A stretch of DNA of 64,000 nucleotides from Gemmatimonadaceae bacterium (GTDB lineage: Bacteria > Gemmatimonadota > Gemmatimonadetes > Gemmatimonadales > Gemmatimonadaceae): positions 1 through 64,000 of the forward strand of contig JACVCD010000021.1 in NCBI GenBank assembly GCA_016742275.1, in the 5' to 3' direction. The position numbers and the translations under genes are program-made. How positions within the stretch are numbered: the stretch's first letter is position 1; each line of letters begins with the position of its first letter. The notes under the pieces are model-generated. The model saw only the letters and a program-made list of their open reading frames with translations, did no database searches and was not told the DNA's origin. Shown here one piece after another: positions 7,231 to 63,212 of the stretch.

Positions 7231-7323
7231 CTACTCAATACTCAATACTTTCACTCAAACCTCAGAGCTAACCGGGCGTTCGGTCAGCTCTGAGCTTTGA
7301 GTAGAAGTTCCTGAGTTGTCAGT
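7231..7323. repeat. Palindrome between convergent genes, terminator-like (type 2, copy B)
   Basis: A 17-bp stem with one mismatch (7253-7269 and 7286-7302, ACTCAAACCTCAGAGCT-type arms) encloses a 16-base loop. ACTCAATACT words flank it on the left and CTGAGTTGTCAGT on the right. It separates the convergent MFS and SDR genes and probably works as a bidirectional transcription stop. It shares its ACTC/AACT word style with palindromes at 1.5 and 44.05 kb. Confidence 0.6.
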
Positions 7324-7334
7324 ACGACAGCCGA

Positions 7335-27547: not shown

Positions 27548-28438
27548 GTGATCAACACTCTCCAGCGCATTCTGCTTGGCGCCCTTCTCTGCGCTTCGAG
27601 CACCGTGGTGCACACCGTCGAGGCGCAGTCTGCTGCCAACCGCGGCACCCTGTTCATCGTGGGCGGCGGAACACAACCCGCGTCGCTGGTTCAGGACTTC
27701 GTGACCCGGGCAGGTGGTTCGGGGAAGGCGAACATCATCGTATTCGCCCAGGCCAGTGTGAATGGTGAGAAGAGCGGCGAATCAAAGGCTGAGGACTTCC
27801 GTAAGCTTGGAGCCACATCACGTTCGCTCTGGATCACACGCGAACAGGCCAATGTCGATTCCATCGTGCGACTGCTCGATGGCGCGACGGGAATCTGGTT
27901 TGGTGGTGGTGATCAGAATCGTCTGACCGCCGTGTTGCGTGGCACGAAGGTGGAGCGCGCCATTCGCGCGCGTTTTGATGCCGGTGCCGTAGTCGGTGGT
28001 ACTTCAGCCGGCGCGGCCGTGATCTCCACGCCCATGATCACTGGCGATGAACTCGGCACACGCCGCGACACCACCGAATCCTGGACACGTGTGGCGCGTG
28101 GCAGTGTGGCTGTCGACAGCGGCTTCGGCTATCTCACCGACGCCATCATCGATCAGCACTTCCTCCGTCGGAAGCGCCACAATCGACTGCTCAGTCTCGT
28201 GCTGGGCGAAGGACCGCATCTCGGCGCGGGTATCGACGAAGGCACAGCACTGATTGTGGAGCCCAGTGGACTGTGGCGTATTGCCGGCGCGAGTTCCGTG
28301 CTGATCGTGGATGCACGGGCGGCGAAGCGTACAGCGGCATCGGCCAATGTGCTTGGCGCCGCAGGGGTGCAGATGCACTTGTTGCCACATGGAGCAACGT
28401 TCGACCCGAAGAGCGGCAAGACGGAACTGCCCCGCTAA
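27548..28438 (+). CDS. Exported cyanophycinase-like S51 peptidase
   Basis: A 296-residue serine peptidase of the cyanophycinase/peptidase E (S51) family. A signal peptide (LLGALLCASS, ending VEAQS) indicates export. The body starts GTLFIVGGGTQ, and the nucleophile Ser153 sits in VVGGTSAGAAVIS, the family signature. DEL and the C-terminal HLLPHGATFD segment also fit. Exported members of this family degrade extracellular cyanophycin or other beta-Asp-Arg peptides. It starts with GTG at 27548, 31 bases after the multicopper oxidase stop, and may share its transcript. Confidence 0.86.
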   Translation: MINTLQRILLGALLCASSTVVHTVEAQSAANRGTLFIVGGGTQPASLVQDFVTRAGGSGKANIIVFAQASVNGEKSGESKAEDFRKLGATSRSLWITREQANVDSIVRLLDGATGIWFGGGDQNRLTAVLRGTKVERAIRARFDAGAVVGGTSAGAAVISTPMITGDELGTRRDTTESWTRVARGSVAVDSGFGYLTDAIIDQHFLRRKRHNRLLSLVLGEGPHLGAGIDEGTALIVEPSGLWRIAGASSVLIVDARAAKRTAASANVLGAAGVQMHLLPHGATFDPKSGKTELPR

Positions 28439-28462
28439 TGGGTACGGATTAACATGGGTACG

Positions 28463-28561
28463 GATTAACACGGATTTCTCGGACAACAAAAGAAACCACA
28501 GGATGACTCGTGCCTTGTCATCCTGTGGTTTCTATTTTTTCGCGGTTTCCGTGTGAATCAG
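28463..28561. repeat. Palindromic intergenic element, type 1, copy 1
   Basis: The core hairpin is a perfect 17-bp stem (28491-28507 and 28517-28533, AGAAACCACAGGATGAC) with a 9-base loop, followed by a T-rich run. Outer arms starting GATTAACACGGAT pair with TCCGTGTGAATC on the far side, so the whole unit of about 99 bp is one long dyad. It lies between the convergent cyanophycinase and ispE genes and must also act as a bidirectional terminator. A 16-bp tandem duplication (GGGTACGGATTAACA twice) precedes it. Copies 2 and 3 are at 57586 and 61546. Confidence 0.88.
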
Positions 28562-28562
28562 T

Positions 28563-34539: not shown

Positions 34540-34606
34540 TCAGCAATCATGACCTGCTGGCGAATTCTTCAGTGAACATGCTGGACGATGTCGCGCCGAG
34601 GTGTGC

Positions 34607-37600
34607 ATGACGGCTCCAGCAATTCGCACGCGTGGTGCCGAGCGCGCCGCTGAAGGAGCCGCGCTCGACGCGCGACTGGCACAGGAACAGGGAGGACTGC
34701 AGGCACGTGTAACCGCCGCGTCCGTCTTACTGGTCATTGCCGTGCTGGCGGGCGCTGTCGCCATCGGCGCGTGGGCATTGGCCGATGGGCGTTGGATGCG
34801 TTGGCCGCGGGTCATGCCATTCGTGTTCTGGTTTGCCGGTGCAGGTGGCGCATGGCTGGCTGTTCGTCAGTGGCGCGCACGCAATGCTGGTGTGCTGTCG
34901 CGTGTTGGATTGGCGGGCGTGATCGAGGCCGAACAGTCACTGCGTGCAGGTTCGTTGCGCGGTGCGCTCGAAGTGGCCAACAGTGGACCACTTGGCGCGC
35001 GTGCGGCGCGTGATGTGGCGCATCGATTGGTGCCGGGGCCGCTGGTGCCACGCGAGGCGCGTCGTCTGCTGCAGGGTGTGACGATTGCCGGTGTGGCTGC
35101 GGCGATTGGTGCGGCCGGTGTGGGTTCAGCGGCACGCATGGTGCCCGATGGTTTGGCGGCCATGCGTCGTCCGATTGCGGCGTGGCGTGGCACATTGTTG
35201 CCAGCCATGGCATTTGATCGCCTGCCCACGCGTGTGCCGCGTGGTATGCCGGTCACGCTGAGGGTTGTGGCACCGGGGCGTGAAAACATTGTCGTGTCGC
35301 GGCGCGCTGAAGGTGAAGCGTGGCAGGACACCACATTGCAGGTGAGTGATGAAGGCACGGCTGCGTTGGCGCTTGGTCCGATGCGTGCGCCGACCACGGT
35401 GCGCGTGTCCGATGGACGTGCGACACCGCTCGAGGCCGCGCTGATTATCGAAGACCGTGGATGGATTGGTGATGTGTCGCTCCGCGCGCACTACCCGTCG
35501 TACCTCGGCCGGACGGACGAATCGCTTGAGCCCGTGCCGCCGCTCCGCGTGCCGCGTGGCACGCGTGTACGCGTGCGCATCATGCTGCATGCGGGCGCAC
35601 GCAACGCTGTGCTGGTGAATGGGCGCGACACCGTGCCGCTGATTCCTGCGGGTGATCTGGTTGGCACTGGCCAGCCCGCAGAGGCGCTGATTCCCATCGA
35701 TCGTGATGGCACGTGGACTTGGCGTGCCGATGCGACGCCACGCGCCGATGGTGTGGCATTGCCACCGGAATTGCCCGATGCGTTGCCGTTTACGACCATC
35801 CCCGATCAGTCGCCAGATGTGCAGATCGTGGCACCGGTAACCGATACAGCCATTGGTCCGACGGGCGAAGTGGCAGTGCTGGTCGATGCCAGCGACGATC
35901 ATGGCGTGGCCCGCGTGCACCTCATGGTGTGGCGTGAAGCGGCGGGTGGTGATGTCCCGGTGACGCGTGAGCGCGTCGAAGTGGCTTCGCCAGCGTCGCC
36001 AGTTTTTGAAGGTGGCACCACCATTACGCTCGATGGCCGCAAGCTCGAGCCGGGCGACAAGCTGCATGTGACGGCCGTAGCGACCGACGATTCGCCGTGG
36101 GCACAACAGGCGGTGAGTGCGGAAATCATTCTGCGTATGCCGACACTGGCCGAGCAGCGCTCGATGGCGCGTGCGCTGGCGGACTCGCTGGCGCAGCGGG
36201 CCAAGCAGTTGGCGCAGCAGGAGCGTCAGTTGCAGCAGAACACGAGTGATGCCTCACGCAATCGTGAGCTCAAGGGATCGCCCGGCGAGCAGAATCAGTC
36301 GAACGGTGCCAAGAGTGAAGGCAACAAGTCCCAGTCCATGTCATTCAGCGCGGCCGAAAAGGCGCGGCAGATGGCCCGGGATCAGCAGCAGCTGAGCTCC
36401 AAGGTGGATTCGCTGCGTCAGAGTGCGCAGGAACTCGAGTCACGTCTGCGCAATGCGAACGCACTCGATACCACACTGGCGTCGCGCATGCGGGACATTC
36501 AGAAGATGCTGCGCGATGCGATGACGCCCGAGATGCAGAAGCAGCTCGAGGAGCTCAATCGTAATGCAGAGCGTTTGAGCGGCTCGCAGGCGCAACAGTC
36601 CATGCAGCAGTTGTCCGAGCAGCAGAAGCAGATGCGCGAGCAGCTCGAGAAGAGCGCGGAGATGCTGAAGCGCGCGGCGCTTGAAGGGGCGATGCAGACT
36701 CTCAAGGACGATGCGCGCGATCTGTCGAAGGAACAGCGACAGATGGCCGAACGTATGGACGGCGCCAAGCGTGAAGGTGCGAATGGCAAGCCGGGCGAGA
36801 GCAAGGAGGGCGCGGAGCAGCGTGCCTCACAGGATCCGCGCGAACTGGCGGAGCGGTCGCGCGAAATTCAGCGACAGGTCGAGCAGCTCGCCAAGAAGCT
36901 CGAAGAAGCTGGCGCGCGTCAGGGTGCACAGAAAACGCGCGAAGCGGAGCCAATGGCCAAGCAGGCTGCGGATGCCATGTCTCAGGCCGCTCGGGAAGCG
37001 CAGCGTCAGCAGCAACAGGGCCAGCAGCAGCAAGGCCAGCAGGGGCAACAAGGCCAGCAGGGGCAACAAGGCCAGCAGCAGCAGGGCCAGCAAGGACAGC
37101 AAGGCCAACAGCAACAGGGTCAACAAGGCCAACAGGGTCAGCAAGGACAGCAAGGCCAGCAGCAACAGGGTCAACAAGGCCAGCAGGGTCAACAAGGACA
37201 GCAAGGCCAACAGGGGCAGCAGGGCAGGCCGCAAGGACAGCAGGGTGGTCCGCCGCAGTCCGGTGGTCAGGGTGATCCATCGCAGCAGGCTCGCCAGGCT
37301 GCAGATGCGATGGACAAGGCTGCGCAACAGCTTGGACAGGCGCGCGACGCACAGGTGAATGCATGGAAGGGTGAGTTGTCGGACCAGCTCGATCAGTCCA
37401 TCAACGAGACCATGCAGTTGGCGCGTCAGCAGGCCGAGCTCGAAAAGCGCGCGCGTCAGGACGGATCGCAGGGTATGCAGGGCGAGCAGAGTGCACTGCA
37501 GCAGGGTGTGCAGCAGGCGGCCGAGCGTCTCGAAGAAGCGGGCCGGTCGTCGTCGCTGCTGTCGCAGCGTTCACAGAAGGCCATGGGTGAAGCGCAGCGT

Positions 37601-38296
37601 CGGGTTGAGCAGGCTACGCAGGCCATGCAGCAGCAGGGGCAGCCTGGTGGGTCCGAGCAGGCGCAGAACGCGATGAAGGATGCCAGTGAAGCGCTCAATC
37701 AGGCGCTGTCATCGCTGGTGCGTGATCGCGAGCGTGTGAACAACGCGAAATCGGCGTCGGGCTTCACTGAGATGATGGAGCAACTCAAGCAGTTGGCGCA
37801 GCAGCAGGGGCAGCTCAATAGCCAGATGCAGGGCCTCAACATGATGCCGGGTGGTGCCAAGGGTGATCAGGCGCAGCAGCAGGCACGCGTGTTGGCTCGC
37901 CAGCAGCGTGATGTGGCGCGCAGCCTGACCGATGTGTCCGATCTCGATGAGACCGGGCGCACCGATGCACTCGCGCGTGAGGCTCAGCAGTTGGCGCAGC
38001 AACTCGAACGCAATGGACTCGATCCCGCTGTGGCGCAGCGACAGCAGTCGTTGTATCGCCGTTTGCTGGATGCGGGTCGATTCCTCGAGCAGGATGAGCG
38101 TGACGATCAGGGGCCGCGTGAAGCGAAGGCCGGCAGTGGACTCAACACCGGTCGCGTTGATGGTCCGCAGTCGGGACGCGCGGCCAGCAAGTTCCCGCCG
38201 CCGACGTGGAACGATCTGCGTGGACTGGGCGCCGATGATCGTCGTCTGGTGATCGAGTACTTCCGCCGCCTCAATGGCACGCTGCCACCGCAATAA
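34607..38296 (+). CDS. Giant DUF4175 membrane protein with coiled-coil and Gln/Gly repeat
   Basis: A 1229-residue membrane protein. Three hydrophobic segments (ASVLLVIAVLAGAVAIGAW, FVFWFAGAGGAW, VTIAGVAAAIGAAGVG) lie in the first 175 residues. A beta-rich region follows to about residue 500 and includes ADDHGVARVHLMV. From 510 on it is almost entirely Gln/Glu/Lys/Arg-rich coiled coil (RAKQLAQQERQLQQ and many more), broken by a Gly-Gln repeat near residues 800-880. This layout fits the DUF4175 family. It is probably an envelope scaffold (inference). The ATG at 34607 is chosen over a GTG two codons earlier. It overlaps the next gene by 23 bases. Confidence 0.82.
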   Translation: MTAPAIRTRGAERAAEGAALDARLAQEQGGLQARVTAASVLLVIAVLAGAVAIGAWALADGRWMRWPRVMPFVFWFAGAGGAWLAVRQWRARNAGVLSRVGLAGVIEAEQSLRAGSLRGALEVANSGPLGARAARDVAHRLVPGPLVPREARRLLQGVTIAGVAAAIGAAGVGSAARMVPDGLAAMRRPIAAWRGTLLPAMAFDRLPTRVPRGMPVTLRVVAPGRENIVVSRRAEGEAWQDTTLQVSDEGTAALALGPMRAPTTVRVSDGRATPLEAALIIEDRGWIGDVSLRAHYPSYLGRTDESLEPVPPLRVPRGTRVRVRIMLHAGARNAVLVNGRDTVPLIPAGDLVGTGQPAEALIPIDRDGTWTWRADATPRADGVALPPELPDALPFTTIPDQSPDVQIVAPVTDTAIGPTGEVAVLVDASDDHGVARVHLMVWREAAGGDVPVTRERVEVASPASPVFEGGTTITLDGRKLEPGDKLHVTAVATDDSPWAQQAVSAEIILRMPTLAEQRSMARALADSLAQRAKQLAQQERQLQQNTSDASRNRELKGSPGEQNQSNGAKSEGNKSQSMSFSAAEKARQMARDQQQLSSKVDSLRQSAQELESRLRNANALDTTLASRMRDIQKMLRDAMTPEMQKQLEELNRNAERLSGSQAQQSMQQLSEQQKQMREQLEKSAEMLKRAALEGAMQTLKDDARDLSKEQRQMAERMDGAKREGANGKPGESKEGAEQRASQDPRELAERSREIQRQVEQLAKKLEEAGARQGAQKTREAEPMAKQAADAMSQAAREAQRQQQQGQQQQGQQGQQGQQGQQGQQQQGQQGQQGQQQQGQQGQQGQQGQQGQQQQGQQGQQGQQGQQGQQGQQGRPQGQQGGPPQSGGQGDPSQQARQAADAMDKAAQQLGQARDAQVNAWKGELSDQLDQSINETMQLARQQAELEKRARQDGSQGMQGEQSALQQGVQQAAERLEEAGRSSSLLSQRSQKAMGEAQRRVEQATQAMQQQGQPGGSEQAQNAMKDASEALNQALSSLVRDRERVNNAKSASGFTEMMEQLKQLAQQQGQLNSQMQGLNMMPGGAKGDQAQQQARVLARQQRDVARSLTDVSDLDETGRTDALAREAQQLAQQLERNGLDPAVAQRQQSLYRRLLDAGRFLEQDERDDQGPREAKAGSGLNTGRVDGPQSGRAASKFPPPTWNDLRGLGADDRRLVIEYFRRLNGTLPPQ
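37007..37248 (+). repeat. In-frame GQQ/GQQQQ tandem repeat
   Basis: About 240 bases repeat 9- and 15-base units (CAGCAAGGC, CAACAGGGT and variants) that encode roughly 20 GQQ or GQQQQ units in the DUF4175 protein. All units stay in frame. Near-identical units make this a likely site of replication slippage and strain-to-strain length change. Confidence 0.9.
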
Positions 38297-56810: not shown

Positions 56811-57560
56811 ATGCGCAGCAACAATCCGGTGCTCTCCAAGTTCGCCGACACCGCCCGCAACACACTCGGGCTGGATACCACCGACTCCATGACGGTGGCG
56901 GGCACCGCCGGCAAGGCGGGCGTTCTGCTGCTCGTTCTTGCCTTTTCGTCGGCACTGACCTGGCAGCAGGTGTCTGCGGGTCGTATCGAACTCATTACGC
57001 CGGCCATGCTCATTGGTGGCATCGGTGGATTCATTGTTGCGCTGGTGACGGCATTCAAGCCGCAGTGGGCCAAGTGGACCGCGCCCATCTACGCCTCGCT
57101 CGAGGGCGTGTTCCTGGGCGGCATTTCCGCGCTGTACAACCTGCGATTTGCCGGTCTGCCTCAGCAGGCCGTGTTGCTCACGATGGGTGTGGCGGGCGGT
57201 GTGTTCCTGCTGTACCGCTTCCGCATTCTGCGTGCGACGGAAGGCTTCAAGCGCATGATGGTCGCGGCCATGATGGGCATCATGCTTTTCTACATCGGCT
57301 CAATGGTGCTCGGCCTGTTCGGTGTGAACATCGGTTACTTCACGTCGTCGGGGCCGTTGGCCATTGGTGTCAATCTCGCCATTGCCGGTGTTGCCGCGCT
57401 CAACCTCGTGCTCGACTTCGATCGCATCGAAGAGGGCGTTCGCATGCGCGCGCCCAAGGCCATGGAATGGTTTGCGGCGTTCGGCCTCATGGTCACGCTG
57501 GTGTGGCTCTATCTCGAGTTGCTGCGACTGCTGTCGCGCTTGCAGGGTCGGCGCGACTAA
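56811..57560 (+). CDS. Bax inhibitor-1/YccA-family membrane protein
   Basis: A 249-residue inner-membrane protein with seven hydrophobic segments. The N-terminal MRSNNPVLSKFADTA and the family strand GIMLFYIGSMVLGLFGVN fit the YccA/Bax1-I group. The C-terminal DFDRIEEGVRMRAPKAMEWFAAFGLMVTLVWLYLELLRLL is highly conserved in this family. In E. coli YccA interacts with the FtsH protease; other members leak Ca2+. The role here is not known. It converges with the amidohydrolase gene, with a palindromic element between. Confidence 0.88.
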   Translation: MRSNNPVLSKFADTARNTLGLDTTDSMTVAGTAGKAGVLLLVLAFSSALTWQQVSAGRIELITPAMLIGGIGGFIVALVTAFKPQWAKWTAPIYASLEGVFLGGISALYNLRFAGLPQQAVLLTMGVAGGVFLLYRFRILRATEGFKRMMVAAMMGIMLFYIGSMVLGLFGVNIGYFTSSGPLAIGVNLAIAGVAALNLVLDFDRIEEGVRMRAPKAMEWFAAFGLMVTLVWLYLELLRLLSRLQGRRD

Positions 57561-57585
57561 GAGCCTCGATGCCGTGGTCCGTTGA

Positions 57586-57686
57586 CTGATTCACGCGGAT
57601 TACACAGACAACAAAAGAAACCACAGGACGATATCAGCAAATCATCCTGTGGTTTCTTTTTTGTCCGCGCAATCCGTGTTGATCAG
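57586..57686. repeat. Palindromic intergenic element, type 1, copy 2
   Basis: The core stem (57616-57632 and 57641-57657) matches copy 1 closely and has one wobble pair. Outer arms CTGATTCACGCGGATT and AATCCGTGTTGATCAG pair across the whole element of 101 bp. It lies between convergent genes and ends in a T-run, so it should also terminate transcription both ways. Confidence 0.88.
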
Positions 57687-57692
57687 TAGGGC

Positions 57693-58895
57693 TTACTTTG
57701 GCCAACCCGTCTGCGGCACGGCCGGCATGATGCGCAGCGCATTCTGGTAGTAGACCTTCTTCAGTACCGCGTCCGGCAGATCGATACCGTACAACTTCCA
57801 GAAGGCGTGGTAGTCGCGGTAGTAGTCGAAGTAGTCATCGCGAGTTTCGAGCACACGCCAGTAGTACGGATACTCTTCTGGCTGGAAGCTGTCCTTGCCG
57901 AAAAGAATGCGATCCTGATACTTGATGAAGAAGTCGTGCGCCGCGCGTGGCTGACGACCCACGTCATACAACACCGCGCCCATTTCACCGAGCACGTTGG
58001 GCATTTCGTCGAACATCTTGCCCAGGCGGCCGAGATCGTTGGCGTGCCAGCCCAGGTGCGCGGCCACGAATGTGGTGCGCGGGTTCTCGCGGAAGAGACT
58101 GTCGCGCTCATTCATGAGTTGTTCAAAGCTCGGATAGCGATCCTGCGGGTAGCGGCGCTCTGGGAACAGCGACTGCTCAAGCCACCGCTCGTTGGTGTAG
58201 TCCACCGCGCGGAAGAACTCCTGCGGATCGGCCGTGTGAATGAACACTGCCAGCTTGAGACGCGCGGCTGCCGCCCACACCGGCTTGAGCTCGGGATCGT
58301 TCAGCTTGAGGCGTGAACCATCGGCCTTGCGGGAGGAGAGACCAAAACCCTTGCCCACTTCGCCAATACCCACCGCACCAGCCTTCGCGTCGGCTTCGAG
58401 CTGCGCTACCGCGCGATCCGCCCAACCTGGCGAGCCCACGCCGGTGAAGTTGATGCCCGTGAGGAAGACCACGCGATCCTTCATGGCCGGCGACTGCTTC
58501 ACGAGGGCGATGCCCTGCGTGAGACGATCACCGGACACATTGCCGGCCACCACCATGAGCCGCACGTTGATCGAATCGAGTGTGCCGGCAAACTTCTGCA
58601 GTGCTTCCACACTCCCGATCTGCGGGCCGCCCGGATGTCCGTGGTAATCGACTACCGGGAACTTGGCCTTCATGCGCATGTTGGCGGGCACCTTCAGCGT
58701 GGATTTTGGGCGATAGTCCACGATACTTGGCACGGTACCTTCCGGCGCGAGACAGTTGCGCGGACGGACCTCCGTCATGCCGGGAGGGCACTGCTCCCCG
58801 TCCTTGATCTGCGTGCCTCCGCGGAATCCACCCTGCGCACTGAGTGCAGCGGGAATCAACGCGGCGGATGCGGTCACCACGAGTAGACGACGCAC
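57693..58895 (-). CDS. Exported amidohydrolase (Amidohydrolase_2 fold)
   Basis: A 400-residue exported metal-dependent hydrolase. A signal peptide (LLVVTASAALIPAALSAQ) is present. The first HxH metal motif is VVDYHGHPGG. AVFIHTADPQ, FVAAHLGWHANDL and ILFGKDSFQPEEYPYYW supply the remaining ligands of an amidohydrolase TIM barrel. EMGAVLYDVGRQPRAA is also typical. Related proteins include decarboxylases and esterases; the substrate is unknown. It is the last gene before a palindromic element. Confidence 0.87.
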   Translation of the reverse strand: MRRLLVVTASAALIPAALSAQGGFRGGTQIKDGEQCPPGMTEVRPRNCLAPEGTVPSIVDYRPKSTLKVPANMRMKAKFPVVDYHGHPGGPQIGSVEALQKFAGTLDSINVRLMVVAGNVSGDRLTQGIALVKQSPAMKDRVVFLTGINFTGVGSPGWADRAVAQLEADAKAGAVGIGEVGKGFGLSSRKADGSRLKLNDPELKPVWAAAARLKLAVFIHTADPQEFFRAVDYTNERWLEQSLFPERRYPQDRYPSFEQLMNERDSLFRENPRTTFVAAHLGWHANDLGRLGKMFDEMPNVLGEMGAVLYDVGRQPRAAHDFFIKYQDRILFGKDSFQPEEYPYYWRVLETRDDYFDYYRDYHAFWKLYGIDLPDAVLKKVYYQNALRIMPAVPQTGWPK

Positions 58896-61317: not shown

Positions 61318-61545
61318 GGACGGGACAAATAGTGAGGCCGCCCCTTGGTCGATGGAACGGGCGGGGGGCGGGCAGAATTCCGGTAACCTCCTAACCTCGC
61401 CACCCGTGCCACCGGACACAACCGCCCGGGCGTCTCTCGTCCCCAATTGGCACAAAGCCATTGGCTCAAGGTCATCGGGAGGCCATTGGCCGGCGGTCAC
61501 TTTGCCGGACGCCGTCCCGCAGACGGGGGCCCAATTAAGTCAAAA
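61318..61545. other. Non-coding leader region upstream of the DUF2723 gene
   Basis: This 228-base stretch has no supported gene. It contains a direct repeat of GCCATTGGC (about 61457-61465 and 61481-61489) and a short CCGTC/GACGG hairpin near 61513. An open frame extends into it from the DUF2723 gene, but the translated part has no family match. With the palindromic element that follows it makes up the gap to purH. Confidence 0.6.
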
Positions 61546-61642
61546 GATCAACGCGGAGTCCACAGACAAAAAAGAAACCACAGGATGATTTGAGGATGTC
61601 ATCCTGTGGTTTCTCTTTTGTCCGTGGTAGTCCGCGATGGTC
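61546..61642. repeat. Palindromic intergenic element, type 1, copy 3
   Basis: A perfect 16-bp core stem (61573-61588 and 61599-61614) has the same AGAAACCACAGGATGA arms as copies 1 and 2. Outer arms GATCAACGCGGA and TCCGCGATGGTC flank it, giving a unit of about 97 bp. Here it lies between genes on the same strand (purH stop and DUF2723 start), unlike the two convergent copies. Confidence 0.88.
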
Positions 61643-61682
61643 AGCTTTGATAGTCAGTTCTCCAGAAGTGACCGCGGACTAC

Positions 61683-63212
61683 TCAGTGGCGGAACAACCG
61701 CTCGCCAGTGAACACCATGGCAATGCCGTGCGCGTTGGCCGCCTCAATGACTTCGGCGTCGCGTACCGAGCCACCCGGCTGCACAATGGCCGTCACACCG
61801 GCCGCTGCTGCCTGATCGATACCGTCGCGGAACGGGAAGAAGGCATCCGAGCCCAGTGACGAGCCCTTGGTGTCATGCCCCAGCGTGGTGGCCTTGTGCA
61901 CCGCCACAAAGCTTGCATCCACGCGGCTCATCTGACCGGCACCAATGCCAATCGTGGCGCCGTTCCGTGCCAGCACGATGGCGTTGCTCTTGACGCTGGC
62001 CACCGCCTTCCAGGCAAACAGCAGGTCGCGCTGTTCTTCGGCCGTAGGCGGACGCGAGGTGACCACGTTCCACTGCTGCGGGTCGGTCGGCGATGGGGCA
62101 CGATCCTGCACCAGCAAACCACCGCGCACGCGCTTGAGATCCATGGTACCGGCGGGCCAGGAGGCCGAGCCCTCAAGGACACGCAGATTCTTCTTGCGGC
62201 CCAGAATCTCCACCGCTTCGTCGGCGAACTTGGGCGCCACGATGCACTCCACGAAGAGACTGCTGATCGCTTCGGCCGCGGCCACGTCAACCGGCACCGA
62301 GAACGCGATCACACTGCCGAACGCGCTGACGGGATCACAGGCCAATGCCTTCTTGTAGGCATCGAGCGCATCACTGCCGGTGGCGAGACCGCAGGGGGTG
62401 GTGTGCTTGATGATCGCGCAGGCGGGTTGTCCACCGTACGGTTCGATGGCGAGCAGCGCGCCTTCGAGGTCGAGCAGGTTGTTGAACGACAACTCCTTGC
62501 CACCCTTCTGCACCAGCGCCCCAAGACCCGTGCCCGGCTTTTCGACGTAGAACGCGGCGCGCTGCTGCGGGTTTTCGCCGTAGCGGAGTGCCTGCTGCTT
62601 CTCGAAGGCCAGCGGATAGCGATCAGGGAACGGCTCGCCGCGCTGCTGCGCAAACCACTGCGCGATCGCTGCGTCGTAGGCGCTGGTGTGCGCATACACC
62701 TTTTCCGCGAGCAGGCGACGGAGCGTGGCATCTTCGGTGCCGGCGTTCACATGATCGAGCACCCGCGCGTAGTCGCTCGGGTCCACGATCACCCACACCG
62801 ACTCGAAATTCTTGGCGGCCGATCGCAGCATGGACGGGCCACCGATATCGATGTTTTCGATCACCTCTTCCGGGTGCACCCCGGCGCGCGCCGCCGTCTC
62901 GCGGAACGGATAGAGATTCACGACGACCAGATCGATGGTGCCGATATTGTGCGCCTTGATCGCGTCCATGTGCTCGGGCAGATCACGGCGAGCCAGCAGG
63001 CCACCGTGCACCACCGGATGCAGCGTCTTCACGCGTCCATCGAGCATCTCCGGAAAACCGGTGATCTCACTGATGTCCTTCACGGCCAGACCCGCGTCAC
63101 GCAGGGTGCGCGCGGTACCGCCAGTGGAGACCAGTTCGACGCCCTTGGCCGCGAGGCCCTGGGCAAAGGGGACGAGTCCGGATTTGTCGGATACGGAGAG
63201 CAGGGCGCGCAT
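61683..63212 (-). CDS. purH: Bifunctional AICAR transformylase/IMP cyclohydrolase
   Basis: A 509-residue enzyme for the last two steps of IMP synthesis. The N-terminal MGS-like IMP cyclohydrolase domain (about 1-190) has [30 protein letters not shown] and [11 protein letters not shown]. The AICAR transformylase domain has [36 protein letters not shown] and [13 protein letters not shown] near the end. All are diagnostic. It follows purN by 46 bases, a usual purine-operon arrangement. Confidence 0.96.

Follow-up and report, generated by a model that had tools for sequence, protein, structure and literature searches.

Three intergenic elements in the window, i.e. the whole stretch of 64,000 nucleotides that was analysed (contig C33 of a genome of 4.57 Mb with a completeness of 99.6%), belong to a real dispersed family of gene-end palindromes. 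By a covariance model and an arm search the family has at least 28 copies in 25 places of the genome. It is of a known general kind, odd in its block periodicity and nesting, and found here in a genome without a Y1 transposase. The reading that we prefer, and consider fairly probable, is that the family consists of dispersed quasi-palindromes of about 100 bp at gene 3' ends, and that the window copies act as predicted bidirectional terminators. Judged from the sequence, the window copies probably terminate transcription; for the other copies such a function is unproven.

Table 1. Location of the family copies in the window and of other palindromes in the same genome.
Feature	Location	Strand	Description
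Family copy 1	28460..28562	.	imperfect dyad, ~103 bp
Copy 1, core hairpin arms	28491-28506 and 28518-28533		
16-bp tandem duplication	28438..28469	+	at the outer end of copy 1
Family copy 2	57585..57687	.	imperfect dyad, ~103 bp; T-rich side of the core hairpin on both strands
Family copy 3	61543..61645	.	imperfect dyad, ~103 bp; between co-directional genes
Copy 3, core hairpin	61573-61614		T-rich side on both strands
GAGGATnT-arm copies	L240 4882-5062, L240 13440-13591, L258 7671-7830, L259 1024-1189		
GCGTAAGG-word and CGCAGAG-word periodic palindromes	L257 18603-18851, L243 7087-7205; L242 2861-3001, L250 6587-6796, L251 1466-1615		intergenic, same genome

The first-pass annotation of the window had described three long dyads with a common core. 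All three are present, with limits of ~103 bp in our analysis compared with the 97-101 bp claimed, Table 1. The near-identity of the 16-17-bp core arms is also borne out, as five of the six arms in the window carry the 16-bp sequence AGAAACCACAGGATGA exactly and the sixth, on the left side of copy 2, departs from it at one base. The outer arms of copy 1 contain GATTnnCRCGGA and its complement. Folded as RNA, copies 1, 2 and 3 obtain z-scores of -7.4, -11.9 and -10.6, respectively, and none of the 200 shuffles made for each copy is as stable. The described gene context is correct as well: the genes on either side of copies 1 and 2 are convergent, those of copy 2 being 56811-57560 (plus strand) and 57693-58895 (minus strand), and copy 3 is located in a co-directional junction, 37 bp downstream of the minus-strand gene 61683-63212. 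The 16-bp tandem duplication claimed before copy 1 exists, at 28438-28469. It takes in the outer end of the left arm, and we therefore regard it as a duplication of the arm end and not of a target site. It starts at 28438, the base with which the stop codon of the plus-strand gene 27548-28438 finishes.

In the window copies, the core stem is flanked by an A-rich and a T-rich run. With such runs on both sides, the hairpin would be expected to act as a bidirectional Rho-independent terminator where genes converge. Among 27 copies, the three in the window are the only ones that combine a stable hairpin with at least six T in the eight bases after the stem on both strands. For these counts the stem end was set by a crude motif that failed on one strand of three copies. 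A terminator scan found copies 2 and 3 and missed copy 1, which has a loop of nine bases while the limit of the scan is eight. The suggestion that the elements may double as bidirectional terminators is thus supported for the window copies, as a prediction, by the folding, the position at stop codons, the T-runs and the comparison at the copy-2 site described below, with copies 2 and 3 also found by the scan. The copy missed by the scan counts against this reading, and so does the rarity of T-runs in the family at large, where only 10 out of 27 copies have at least six T of eight on any strand. Intrinsic bidirectional terminators of the tail-to-tail type are similar to the window copies in their location between convergent genes and in having a strong hairpin with A-rich and T-rich sides (according to the available part of PMC1852404), but the family is ~100 bp long, homologous across the genome, and most of its copies are without T-runs on both strands.

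A BLAST search with copy 1 as the query gave 24 matching pieces in the genome. The covariance model, built from 15 copies, obtained 55 hits at E <= 1 on the two strands, corresponding to 27 copies in 24 places; a weak hit (C13:122841, E 0.18) was dropped from the copy count. An extra copy on C29, with a loop of ~115 bases, was found through its arm. Four copies form a tandem array with a period of ~144 bp (C20:8162-8701). When the model was run over 41 genomes, using stricter filters than in the search of this genome, 22 genomes matched, and they make up 22 of the 25 members of the same genus (this genome included). The number of hits per matching genome in the genus varies from 1 to 59 on the two strands, with the highest number in G023 and about 44-49 in each of G001, G022, G016 and G014. 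Under the stricter filters, no family hits were found in G003, G006 and G011 of the same genus, nor in any of the 16 genomes from other genera of the order. In G023 we also observed three tandem copies of a species-specific subfamily with a spacing of ~230 bp (L261 100-900, G023:C451).

The family is not matched by Rfam, which at gathering thresholds identifies two tRNAs and a 5S rRNA only. Two pattern scans of a named genome collection, from which records near this genome may be left out, gave zero matches each. Among the matches listed from the open-licence literature, no described family was recognised as the same.

All 25 places are at a stop codon, 17 of them between convergent genes, 8 between co-directional genes and none between divergent genes; most places thus have the position expected of a bidirectional intrinsic terminator, at the stop codons of convergent genes. 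Gene calls throughout are from a home-made codon-usage caller, and in 5 of the 24 covariance-model places the end of a called gene extends 4-47 bases into the element. These 24 places alone are divided into 17 convergent, 7 co-directional and 0 divergent; the copy on C29 is co-directional, 22 bp past a stop. For comparison, 54 of the 327 junctions in a 464-kb survey of the same genome are convergent and 53 divergent. The 20 chunks of the survey were picked with the family positions already known, and no listed copy is in them. Given 54 convergent junctions out of 327, the probability to obtain at least 17 out of 24 by chance is 5e-9, and the probability of no divergent place among 24 is 0.014. 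In G001 and G022 together, the 23 places among the matches listed are 10 convergent, 12 co-directional and one divergent, and for the listed convergent and co-directional ones the nearest stop is at most 149 bp away. The sole divergent case listed, G001 C5, has one flank in common with the convergent G022 C173, so that the divergent call may be a gene-calling error.

Such a distribution could also be obtained without any function. Palindromes might arise and spread passively, by template switching or some other process, and be merely tolerated at gene ends because neither promoters nor coding sequences are damaged there. We regard this neutral origin as possible, if somewhat improbable. It is consistent with most copies having no T-run on at least one strand, with the GCAACN-type simple repeats that are present on one or both sides of some copies, and with several unrelated long quasi-palindromes that likewise favour convergent junctions. 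However, avoidance of promoters alone would not account for the enrichment of convergent over co-directional junctions.

The arms of the elements show paired changes. In the alignment of 15 copies, 93.5% of the cells pair, compared with 86.8% in shuffles, and 11 out of 30 consensus pairs vary on both sides. A covariation score of 0.226 was obtained, whereas shuffles give 0.119 and none of 500 is as high; slid controls obtain 0.03-0.07, a comparison in which the tested structure has an advantage as it was derived from the same alignment. According to the first-pass annotation, finding only these three copies in the genome, with no compensatory changes in the arms, would have argued for simple local terminators. 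With the copy number and the double-sided changes reported here this does not hold, and a dispersed palindromic family with paired changes is supported by both the genome-wide search and the covariation.

Pairing is not all that is conserved. The arms carry CRCGGA blocks ~9 bp apart, and the spacers pair in a third to half of the copies. We could anchor 25 of 27 copies for a count by position. In the outer CRCGGA block, the arms match at five of the six positions in 0.96-1.00 of the copies and at the R position in 0.72. The match is 0.40-0.92 at the positions of the second block, which is blurred by spacers of three and four bases, and 0.32-0.52 at the three spacer positions next to the outer block. 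The outer block is kept as sequence and the spacers are not kept as pairs. Base pairing does not account for the words kept in the arms, one idea considered for the CRCGGA block being a CsrA site, and a near-invariant outer block next to such spacers is not predicted by a pure hairpin role. This counts against the reading that we prefer, as does the rarity of block-wise paired change between species: a block changed in both arms at just one of nine orthologous sets compared. In this pair (P8), the arm is GATGGGGCCGG in G022 and GAACCCGACGG in the present genome, each with a perfect complement opposite. Single-sided changes were also seen in other sets among the nine.

Of the 27 relatives matching at the copy-2 junction, we read the seven in which the two genes are close together. 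G001 and G022 have the element, which carries a long insert there. In G003, G042, G017, G005 and G044 the spacer contains a short GC-rich hairpin of unrelated sequence, by eye. Copy 2 occupies a spacer where, by eye, relatives have ordinary terminator-like hairpins, and this comparison is the best hint of a function; it also argues against a neutral origin. At the copy-3 site, 27 relatives were compared (L226 is not interpretable); the element is present in G022 and absent from G001, and some other relatives show unrelated quasi-palindromes by eye. None of 11 relatives has the element at the copy-1 site, where a long quasi-palindrome of unrelated sequence was seen by eye in G003. The presence of the element in 0 of 11 and 1 of 27 relatives at these two sites speaks against the terminator reading, and orthologous sites that are mostly empty or hold unrelated sequence fit neutral by-products.

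Comparing 48 places by their flanks, we found at least five that are common to this genome and G022 by both flanks, with 73-89% identity, and the copy-3 site is common by one flank. These common sites count against passive by-products. G022 and G001 also have at least five places in common by both flanks and a sixth by one flank. As these comparisons suggest, copies of the family can stay at their sites while species diverge, and turnover occurs as well.

The loop of the copy-2 element in G001 and G022 contains ~300 extra bases. In G022 the insert has an inner perfect 43-bp inverted repeat, and by eye the centre between the inner arms is in opposite directions in the two genomes. Other compound copies, of ~250-650 bp, in G001 and G022 hold further palindromic modules, of the AACAGCTCACGCAGAG and AACTGCCTTGTCGCGGAT kinds. 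They have no stop-free stretch longer than 167 codons, and one contains a run of N. In yeast, the outcomes of template switching by DNA polymerase are arm homogenisation and spacer inversion (in the available part of PMC8604942). The paired block change at P8 and the inverted nested centre of G001 and G022 fit these two outcomes, and by this analogy template switching is a likely way in which the arms are renewed.

Returning to the terminator reading, a family element transcribed from either side would form a strong hairpin, at which transcription may terminate. Copy 3 would mainly be a one-way terminator or a 3'-end protector. The family presumably spreads to new sites, and the complementarity of the arms may be renewed both by DNA template switching between the arms and by selection.

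A different explanation of the dispersal is that the elements are MITEs, i.e. non-autonomous elements moved by a DNA transposase that recognises AACTGATTnnCRCGGAnnnCRCGGA ends. The arms are conserved at both ends in inverted orientation as in MITE terminal repeats, the copies are dispersed to unrelated sites, and the subfamilies differ between species. We nevertheless consider this explanation unlikely. No target-site duplication is evident by eye in the flanks of the copies in this genome; among the relatives compared, no close one with an alignable empty site was found, the spacers at the copy sites not being alignable. Arms with at most two mismatches in this genome are all in elements of no more than ~225 bp, and the widest arm pairs inspected in G001 and G022 span ~650 bp, with the absence of longer reading frames noted above. 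No autonomous parent with the same ends was found in this genome or among the arm pairs inspected in G001 and G022, and an autonomous element flanked by family arms is made less likely as far as these were searched. The description of the elements as MITE-like is not confirmed, as neither a target duplication nor an autonomous element with these arms was seen in the genomes searched.

The elements had also been called REP-like. REPs are palindromes of 20-40 bp with a GTAG or CGTC tag at one end; the GTAG type is attributed to a transposase dedicated to it, RAYT, and CGTC repeats apparently have none (PMC3733652, available part), so the absence of a dedicated transposase is not unique to our family. 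The likeness to REP/BIME elements is that both are intergenic palindromes located mainly at convergent or co-directional junctions and sometimes compound (PMC2817692 and PMC3733652, both as far as available). Our family is likewise located at gene 3' ends, its compound inverted arrangements in G001 and G022 look BIME-like, and a Y1 transposase is present in 8 out of 30 genomes of the genus, including G023 that has most hits. However, the element is ~103 bp long with ~28 copies, its ends are AACTGATT...AATCAGTT, and it has neither a GTAG nor a CGTC tag. A search for a REP-associated tyrosine transposase with the PF01797 (Y1_Tnp) profile gave zero matches in this genome, and also in G001, G022, G016, G014 and G019, all of which carry the family. 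The enzyme does not track the copy number, as it is absent from G001, G022, G016 and G014 and present in G023. Without a Y1 transposase in the genome, a RAYT-driven REP is rejected here, unless a diverged RAYT escaped the PF01797 profile or the enzyme disappeared once the elements had spread, and we find a REP/BIME system highly improbable as the source of the family.

Lone or degenerate integron attC sites were considered since many arms end in AAC...GTT. AAC[AT]G is found at the left end in 20 out of 28 copies and C[AT]GTT at the right end in 22 out of 28. An integron integrase (TIGR02249) is present in 18 out of 30 genomes of the genus and, above the cut-off, in this genome (C4:120898-121827). 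The consensus of the attC core boxes is RYYYAAC and GTTRRRY. None of the 28 copies contains both boxes, which is the weaker evidence because the strict box test is also negative beside the integrase of this genome. The argument is carried by the sequence: the repeats that neighbour the integrase have GCMTAAC...GTTATGC ends and differ from the family, so that no array of the family lies beside it, and on that contig ~20 kb separate the integrase from the closest family copy. On the lack of copies with both boxes and the different repeats at the integrase, attC identity is rejected, and we give lone or degenerate sites a very low probability. The integrase itself is intact (384 bits with TIGR02249; L376 8899-9828, equal to G000:C4:120898-121827), and attC-like repeats of ~107 bp are located near it at L376 10686 and 12927.

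Uptake signals resemble the family in that inverted pairs of a conserved word form terminator hairpins, and DUS/USS words have about 1000 or more copies per genome (PMC1852404, in the part available). The family word AACACGGAT is no such genome-wide signal: it occurs three times, and ACACGGATT four times, on both strands of 464 kb. A DUS-like uptake signal is ruled out by these word counts in the 464-kb sample. Enterococcal repeats have a terminator role. ERIC, Efa-1 and other stem-loop repeats are, like our family, intergenic single or double hairpins of moderate copy number (according to the available part of PMC2267715), but the family has blocks with a 9-bp period and nested kinds of palindromes, a comparison made by description only.

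In the survey of this genome, 16 out of 327 junctions have a palindrome score of at least 40, while dinucleotide shuffles give none. The high-scoring palindromes are located at 8 of 54 convergent, 6 of 220 co-directional and 2 of 53 divergent junctions. Three of the 16 junctions are of the family, all in the window, and the others use words such as GAGGATnT or GCGTAAGG, Table 1. At the same score, palindromes are found at 3 out of 155 junctions in G020, of the same genus, and at 0 out of 148 in G031, which is from another genus. The palindromes with the GAGGATnT word form a family with four copies in the sampled 400 kb of this genome. In the window, two more long intergenic quasi-palindromes (1498-1582 and 7232-7324) contain ACTC/ACTG-type words, unlike the family.

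The phylum has a related motif in other genera too. With a strict pattern, in which two CACGGA blocks stand opposite two TCCGTG blocks, matches were obtained in 15 out of 395 genomes of the phylum (four of the same genus), representing 10 out of 138 genera, and none with the reversed control. The pattern undercounts, since it has only one match in this genome. It is also present in 33 stretches of viral contigs from IMG/VR (L331-L363). Tentatively, and with considerable doubt, the family could be seen as a branch of phylum-wide palindromes with a 9-bp period, (CRCGGAnnn)n facing (TCCGYGnnn)n, that also exist in viral contigs. It would have no transposase of its own and spread either by template switching or with the help of a host protein whose recognition sites are the CRCGGA blocks of both strands, nest in its own hairpin loops, and be kept as a ready-made bidirectional terminator.

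The family adds another case of dispersed palindromes in an almost complete genome without a RAYT. It provides a testable case both for the replacement of terminators by mobile or self-renewing palindromes and for how long arms remain complementary across species divergence. Repeats of another type are found within a reading frame of the window (34601-38296), where dense 9- and 15-base repeats at 36995-37240 encode a stretch rich in Gln and Gly.
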